From positions 1 to 41,763 of IMG/VR virus record IMGVR_UViG_3300027763_000102: a stretch of 41,763 bases of DNA. The stretch is one strand, 5' to 3'. The notes below the pieces were generated by a model. That model did not search any database. It was not told the origin of the DNA and saw nothing but the letters and a program-made list of their open reading frames with translations. The stretch comes from a virus. A program made the position numbers and the translations under genes. This document shows, one piece after another, positions 34,577 to 35,070 of this stretch (within the stretch, counting starts at the first letter, position 1; each line of letters starts with the position of its first letter).

Positions 34577-34618
34577 ACCATCACAAATAAATGTTGATTA
34601 GTATTTATTTGTGTTGGT
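34577..34618. repeat. AT-rich long inverted repeat (possible cruciform)
   Basis: ACCA-T-CACAAATAAAT (34577-34592), a ten-base loop, and ATTTATTTGTG-T-TGGT (34603-34618) pair over 15 base pairs with one T-T mismatch. It begins 39 bases after the primase stop and ends six bases before a strong promoter. It is not followed by a T-run, so it is not a standard terminator. An origin or cruciform role is a hypothesis. Confidence 0.8.
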
Positions 34619-34623
34619 AAGTG

Positions 34624-34653
34624 TTGACACGTCTTGAGACGTCTTGATACAAT
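34624..34653 (+). promoter_or_regulatory. Strong sigma70-type promoter with operator in the spacer
   Basis: TTGACA (34624-34629), an 18-base spacer, and TACAAT (34648-34653) preceded by TGA as an extended -10. The spacer contains ACGTCTTGA twice, ten bases apart (34629, 34639), and the inverted repeat ACGTCT-TG-AGACGT (34629-34642). The predicted start is near A34660. It drives the ncRNA that follows. The repeats suggest a bound repressor or activator. Confidence 0.8.
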
Positions 34654-34659
34654 TCTAGC

Positions 34660-34779
34660 AAATGCAAGCGGGTGGAACTTCTTGCAAGAAAGCCGTTAAG
34701 TCAGACTCCGACCCCTTTGGGGTGCGTGTCCTTCAAAAGAGGATATGGTTCCACCGGGGTCTGTCTTAACGGTTTTTTT
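34660..34779 (+). ncRNA. Predicted ~120-nt structured RNA with pseudoknot and terminator
   Basis: From the predicted start to a T7 run there is no credible coding frame. Four pairings are visible. TGCAAG (34663-34668) pairs with CTTGCA (34681-34686). GGTGGAAC (34671-34678) pairs with GTTCCACC (34748-34755). CCGTTAAGTCAGAC (34693-34706) pairs with GTCTGTCTTAACGG (34759-34772), with one T-T mismatch. ACCCC (34711-34715) pairs with GGGGT (34719-34723). The second and third interleave, so they form a pseudoknot or loop-loop contact. Seven T residues end the unit. It may be a regulatory RNA or a replication-related transcript. I recognise no known RNA family. Confidence 0.7.
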
Positions 34780-35070
34780 CGTTTTACTTCCCGTACTCCG
34801 CACGATAGCAAGCACCCCAGTCGTGGTGGCGCGGAAGGAAAGCGTACACGGTATGCCGTAAGGCTAGGGGGCAGTTCCCGAATAATCCGTGCGACTGGTC
34901 GAATCATCAAGTCGGGGGCAGAACTAACGTTCGCATGATGATCCTGCATTGACAGGGGTGAAGCACCTTCCCTCTCTACTCCTTGAATGGGGTAGGGGGG
35001 TCTTTGGGTGAAAGGAATGATAGGGCGAAAAAGGGGGGTCGGGAAATTTTGGGTCATGTCCCTTTTTTTT
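34780..35070. other. Noncoding region with short inverted repeats and G-runs
   Basis: No convincing gene on either strand; the two overlapping open frames here have compositions typical of non-coding DNA. It contains possible stems: CGCACG/CGTGCG (34799-34804 with 34888-34893), ACGG-TATG-CCGT (34848-34859), CGACT/AGTCG (34892-34914), and CTACTCC/GGGGTAG (34976-34995). From 34989 to 35053 there are seven runs of three to six G. I found no tRNA cloverleaf. A second structured RNA or part of an origin is possible. Confidence 0.5.

Follow-up and report, generated by a model that had tools for sequence, protein, structure and literature searches.

A previously uncatalogued pseudoknotted RNA of freshwater phages lies upstream of a second structured RNA and may form part of a built-in switch

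What is transcribed from a gene-free stretch of about 120 nucleotides that follows a promoter and ends in a run of T residues? The stretch occupies positions 34660-34779 of a 41.8-kb virus record, analyzed at full length and called the window here, in which a ParB-like gene (so named by analogy with the annotation of phage record MW202545), a helicase gene, a GIY-YIG gene, and a Toprim primase gene precede it in that order. A sequence-only reading had proposed a noncoding, pseudoknotted RNA with its own promoter and terminator, possibly of a new structured class. The element, designated E1, proved to be a genuine structured RNA, found in freshwater phages and not catalogued before; it is part of something larger, with a mechanism that is only moderately constrained.

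We analyzed the elements of E1 in the window. The promoter, TTGACA-18-TACAAT, is located on the plus strand at 34624-34653 (-35 at 34624-34629, -10 at 34648-34653) and agrees with the consensus at 11 of 12 positions. E1 itself (34660-34779, plus strand) scored 107.5 bits against the covariance model R1 compared with 42.7 bits for the opposite strand. It begins with the P1 hairpin (34663-34686), in which TGCAAG (34663-34668) pairs with CTTGCA (34681-34686) and the loop, holding GGTGGAAC, displays GTGGAAC. Two interleaved helices were confirmed, the first between GGTGGAAC (34671-34678) and GTTCCACC (34748-34755) and the second, P2, between CCGTTAAGTCAGAC (34693-34706) and GTCTGTCTTAACGG (34759-34772); the promoter, these helices, the inner stem, and the T-run described earlier are thus all present. 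However, P2 is longer than had been described: it pairs 34690-34710 with 34755-34775, contains a U.U mismatch at 34701/34764, gains an inner extension (TCCG, 34707-34710/CGGG, 34755-34758), and extends with its 3' strand into the T-run. Because P2 reaches further inwards, C34755 was assigned to it, and the pseudoknot proper consists of 34672-34678, within the P1 loop, and 34748-34754, a strand termed J that lies immediately 5' of the P2 3' strand. The contact of the P1 loop proposed earlier is supported, as a loop-to-strand pairing. The remaining hairpins are P3 (ACCCC-TTT-GGGGT, 34711-34723) and a P4 hairpin with a conserved A-rich loop (34726-34746, in which 34726-34733 pairs with 34739-34746) that had gone unlisted. 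Since J is separated from P2 by only 0-1 nt, P2, P3, P4, and the pseudoknot are predicted to form a tight four-way junction. The minimum free energy of the fold, with the pseudoknot excluded from the count, was -62.2 kcal/mol compared with -41.1 ± 4.2 kcal/mol for shuffled sequences (z -5.0). Seven T residues (34773-34779) follow P2 as a possible, probably conditional, terminator. P2 differs from a plain intrinsic terminator in that it surrounds a branched region of 44 nt, which is why the T-run was missing from a simple terminator scan.

Relatives of E1, together termed class A, were found at about 100 viral loci with 84-87 distinct sequences. A search baited with the primase retrieved 76 viral loci, 43 of which contain E1 downstream of the primase at a strong covariance-model score. 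A pattern of the E1 core matched 117 stretches in IMG/VR, and one annotated phage record, MW202545, contains E1. The class A pattern had no match in 84,980 bacterial and archaeal genomes, and a plasmid search likewise returned nothing. In alignment A1 (MAFFT, 35 distinct RNAs), the pseudoknot helix was 90.7% paired, with five of eight pairs changed on both sides. Alignment A3, comprising 87 distinct rows, was made to a covariance model that does not include the pseudoknot; 97.2% of the helix's cells were nevertheless paired, and six of seven pairs showed compensatory changes (variants GUGGAA/UUCCAC, GUGAGA/UCUCAC, UUGGAA/UUCCAA, and GUAGAA/UUCUAC). In A3, P2 was 99.0% paired with double changes in 15 of its 21 pairs, all five modeled pairs of P1 had changed on both sides, and P3 was 97.9% paired and almost invariant. 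When partners were shifted by 1-3 columns, pairing fell from 93% to 35-51%. The best tree, which is weakly supported, implies 25 or more type changes in each pseudoknot strand; along its supported branches, no opposing change of the GTGAG/CTCAC type occurs. That P2 contains G-U pairs, and that the model scores the two strands so differently, argues for an RNA rather than a DNA palindrome.

The promoter is also retained: a site with at least 10 of 12 consensus matches was present at E1 in 59 of 86 relatives; a control stretch located 70 nt upstream contained such a site in only 1 of 86. No frame was open in more than 35 of 84 sequences, and the E1 lengths in these sequences were spread over the three residues modulo 3 (32/30/22); a coding function was therefore rejected. 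Rfam gave no match at gathering score anywhere in the window and chance-level matches only at E≤10; a scan of the window and about 30 other loci gave none for E1 or for the other E1 classes described below. In the literature collection searched, no description of E1 or of the Betaproteobacteria-1 RNA discussed below was found. The proposal of a noncoding, pseudoknotted RNA with its own promoter is upheld, as is that of a new structured RNA class; relatives keep both the pairings and the promoter. In MW202545, an annotated hypothetical protein, UOF78434.1 (locus L002, 2947-3174), spans E1; this annotation is doubtful because E1 keeps no reading frame, and it is probably not a gene.

The sequence-only reading had captured a real RNA but overlooked that it is one half of a larger cassette. 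A second structured RNA, E2, follows at 34790-35014 on the plus strand (sequence type CCGTACTCCGCACG); its 55 aligned relatives share 37 consensus pairs that are 98% paired, with 12 double changes. A likely terminator of E2, GGG-tcatgt-CCC followed by eight T residues, is located at 35051-35070 on the same strand. Single-sequence folding of the window's E2 is ordinary (z -0.73), and covariation is visible only in the alignment. E1 is followed by E2 at every one of the 101 class A loci whose downstream DNA is long enough (of 104 loci, 97 were recognized by a regular expression for six types and 4 by reading, 2 had too little DNA, and 1 was truncated). One E2 type is the Rfam family RF02932, Betaproteobacteria-1 RNA, which occupies the same place as the window's E2 in sister phages and is the E2 in about a fifth of class A loci. 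The window's own E2 is of a different type and does not reach the RF02932 model; E1 itself does not match it either, so that RF02932 is the neighbor of E1 and not E1. In Acidovorax phage AP1, RF02932 lies directly after the primase without E1. The cassette is found either after the primase or, in other phages, about 350 nt upstream of ParB-like/helicase genes; the flanking genes vary while E1 and E2 stay together, and the genes 3' of E2 differ between phages. Because E1-E2 occurs in both gene settings, it is the cassette rather than any neighboring gene that forms the unit. No conserved regulated gene of the kind that follows a riboswitch or attenuator leader was found downstream at these loci.

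At primase loci that lack class A, the same place was taken by sequence-unrelated RNAs, most of which have a promoter of the same type. All classes share a layout of a 5' hairpin, a strand complementary to its loop before the P2 3' strand, P2, a T-run, a short segment termed post, and E2, and most of them retain a T-run of at least five residues behind a strong stem. Class B RNAs (~150 nt) have the hairpin CAACGG-ATTGGTAA-CCCGTTG and a loop-J contact TTGGT/ACCAA; by inspection, a second loop contact varies (CAGTAC/GTACTG, CATCGA/TCGATG, and CAGGGA/TCCCTG). Since the class B pattern is short, its scan gave many chance matches. None of these classes, including B, C, D, and others, reached an Rfam model. 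Class B is large (L023, L052, L057, L062, and L202-L314), class C was seen at L030, L027, L059, and L078, and class D at L058, L035, L042, L051, L338, and L357; further unrelated RNAs of the same layout precede E2 in L055/L056, L334/L387, L353/L394, L348/L363, and L365/L398.

We then compared the post segment with the 5' hairpin as a second possible partner. In the window, post (34780-34792, plus strand) pairs weakly, GTTTTACTT with GGGTGGAAC, including several G-U pairs. In class A sequences, complementarity to the P1 loop scored 12.9 for the 14 nt that follow the T-run, compared with 7-8 for other stretches, and cognate pairs exceeded shuffled pairs (z 5.4). Among 47-48 distinct clusters with little sequence in common, the 16 nt before E2 were complementary to the 5' region (z 6.5-6.9; 0 of 1,000 shuffles), as was the J region (z 8.3, across unrelated classes), whereas four control stretches inside E2 gave z -1.1 to 1.2; the score and the clustering threshold were our choice, and clustering reduces relatedness without removing it. 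Long post pairings were seen in L345 (GTTGCCGTAGGAA/TTTCTACGGCAGC) and L391 (12 bp). In class B the complementarity is present but invariant, with no covariation, and in class A the tree-corrected post pairs were too few to reach significance. In class A, post competes with the pseudoknot; in several classes it matches the 5' strand of P1 itself and thus competes with the hairpin. Two competing partners of one exposed hairpin suggest a built-in RNA switch. The T-run had been taken for the terminator of the RNA; it does follow P2, but it is unlikely to be simply the RNA's end, mainly because post complements the 5' hairpin and also because E2 follows. Judged from these sequence features, termination there is probably conditional.

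The following course of events would account for these features. Transcription would begin at the conserved sigma-70-type promoter, and the 5' hairpin would fold first. If its loop pairs with J, the pseudoknot would stack on the long P2, P2 would close, and polymerase would stop at the T-run, releasing an RNA of ~120 nt. If the hairpin or loop is otherwise engaged, polymerase would continue past the T-run and yield a long E1-E2 RNA, whose 5' strand could pair with post immediately ahead of E2. Competition between J and post for the 5' hairpin would also allow the short RNA to work in trans, by targeting post in long transcripts that share its specificity. The promoter, fold, pseudoknot, constant E2 neighborhood, and post complementarity across unrelated classes are observed; partial termination and an alternation of the two pairings in vivo are inferred from them, as is any role of E2. 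Several points speak against a switch: P2 with a T-run of 6-8 residues could terminate efficiently and leave little long RNA, the window's post pairing is short with a high share of G-U pairs, AP1 carries E2 without E1, and E2 is no gene with a known output. We tentatively favor, at somewhat below even confidence, E1 as a self-targeting leader RNA with two isoforms and with two partners competing for its 5' hairpin, in the manner of IsrK, P4 CI, and c4. It is possible, though less likely than not, that the cassette is a new phage module of two exchangeable tandem RNAs. In such a module, a fast-diverging "specificity" RNA, which has a single architecture in many unrelated sequence classes and two competing partners for its 5' hairpin, would precede one of several ornate RNAs, and a protein-independent switch would decide whether the second RNA is made.

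A proven precedent comes from IsrK of the Gifsy-1 prophage, a phage RNA whose terminated form targets its own read-through transcript (PMC4825925). Like IsrK, E1 is a phage RNA with its own promoter, a terminator, and complementarity to its own longer transcript, although the two isoforms, known for IsrK, are only proposed for E1. IsrK reads into a protein-coding mRNA, whereas E1 is pseudoknotted and its downstream partner is a structured RNA. According to the passages on P4 in the same source, P4 CI RNA pairs with targets upstream and downstream of itself and stops replication-gene expression (PMC4825925). As described there, it shares with E1 that it is a small RNA complementary to two sequences; the replication genes of phage P4 are under its control. 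P4 CI is processed from a transcript and has targets on both sides, while one partner of E1 is internal and E1 has its own promoter and T-run. The c4 antisense RNA is the basis of P1/P7 heteroimmunity (PMC12197685); here too the specificity resides in short, probably loop-borne, complementary sequences, but the target of c4 is an antirepressor mRNA. E1 shows the complementarity to a segment of its own longer transcript that is found in all three systems. A controlled downstream protein gene was not found at E1 loci, where E2 lies downstream and later genes vary, and the IsrK and C4 Rfam models did not match E1. By analogy, E1 would resemble these RNAs in its complementarity logic; we do not claim membership in any of them.

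Other explanations were weighed against self-targeting. A single ornate RNA of ~400 nt, with E1 and E2 as fixed domains, an internal T-run, and the 5'/post pairing as closing helix, would agree with the inseparability of E1 and E2 in class A, with the covariation of E2 as a structured RNA, and with pairing of the 5' strand to a segment adjoining E2. We consider it unlikely, because most classes keep a T-run of at least five residues after a strong stem, post rivals P1 or the pseudoknot rather than supplementing either, and E2 is found alone. An independent trans-acting RNA that ends at the T-run and is linked to E2 only by a neutral arrangement of RNA genes, such as a decoy directed at a host protein or defense system, would fit the dedicated promoter, the compact four-way-junction fold, the tRNAs at the same spot in L002 and L052, and the fast sequence turnover at one locus; it leaves the constant E2 adjacency and the post complementarity unexplained and appears quite unlikely. 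Where flanks were identified, the cassette is often beside replication genes, which would suit a primer RNA or origin element with a switch logic comparable to that of ColE1 RNA II. However, in MW202545 and AP1 the RNA locus lies off the GC-skew extreme (a weak test), no antisense RNA gene was seen, and the sense orientation differs from RNA I; replication control is thus improbable. On the opposite strand of E1, the scan listed no promoter, and the covariance model scored far lower (42.7 bits). A self-cleaving ribozyme of the nested-pseudoknot kind, hinted at earlier because the order of pseudoknot strand, P2, P3, pseudoknot strand, and P2 partly recalls HDV, is highly implausible: HDV-like RNAs have the helix order P1, P2, P3, P1', P4, P2', with the P1 5' strand at the product 5' end and a catalytic C in the junction before P2', whereas in E1 the fourth hairpin precedes the pseudoknot 3' strand, the 5' strand sits in a hairpin loop, J abuts P2 without a junction, and neither the HDV-like Rfam model, at gathering or as a weak match, nor any other Rfam ribozyme matched.

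With E1, at least one well-supported structured RNA class absent from Rfam 15 is added, and several more are indicated. The orphan Betaproteobacteria-1 RNA gains a context as one of several interchangeable RNAs behind a leader RNA. Under self-targeting, the mutually exclusive pairings yield a clear prediction, cheap to test, about phage control by RNA alone. The interchangeability of the classes resembles what selection for specificity produces in immunity or incompatibility systems. The carrier phages are abundant and probably infect Burkholderiales. A search of bacterial genomes with the E2 start gave one match, on a phage-like contig of a Burkholderiales metagenome-assembled genome; as the class A pattern gave none, no prophage host range was drawn.

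Further E2 types were seen in L085, L081, and L141 (CATGCGGTACGTCGGTGGTGG), in L043, L011, and L112 (TCTATCGGG), in L075 and L050 (GAACGTTTTG), and in L110 and L153 (GCACGGGGGACAG); these additional types, at least four in number, resemble ornate RNAs and have no Rfam match. An insert of ~130 nt inside E2, bounded by TGATTGATGATGG and CCATCATCAATCACAT, was present in L007, L086, L117, L214, L218, and L295, as if it were an extra arm or a small insertion. Another insert, a hairpin of ~110 nt (GGGTTAGCGCC ... CACTGCTTTATGTGAGC), lies between E1 and E2 in L124, L142, L158, L350, L402, L410, L421, and L038 and upstream of E1 in L020 and L037; this recurring insert resembles a small mobile repeat carried by these phages. 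Ahead of E1, or of the class B RNA that replaces it, the intergenic slot contains tRNA genes in L002 (five, 2360-2841) and L052 (3877-3950). In the window, the gap between the primase and E1 holds a long inverted repeat at 34582-34614 (CACAAATAAAT/ATTTATTTGTG), and in L012, L020, L034, and L075 the same gap holds other inverted repeats (CAACACGCATGGGGA/TCCCCAGCCGTGTTG) that vary from phage to phage.
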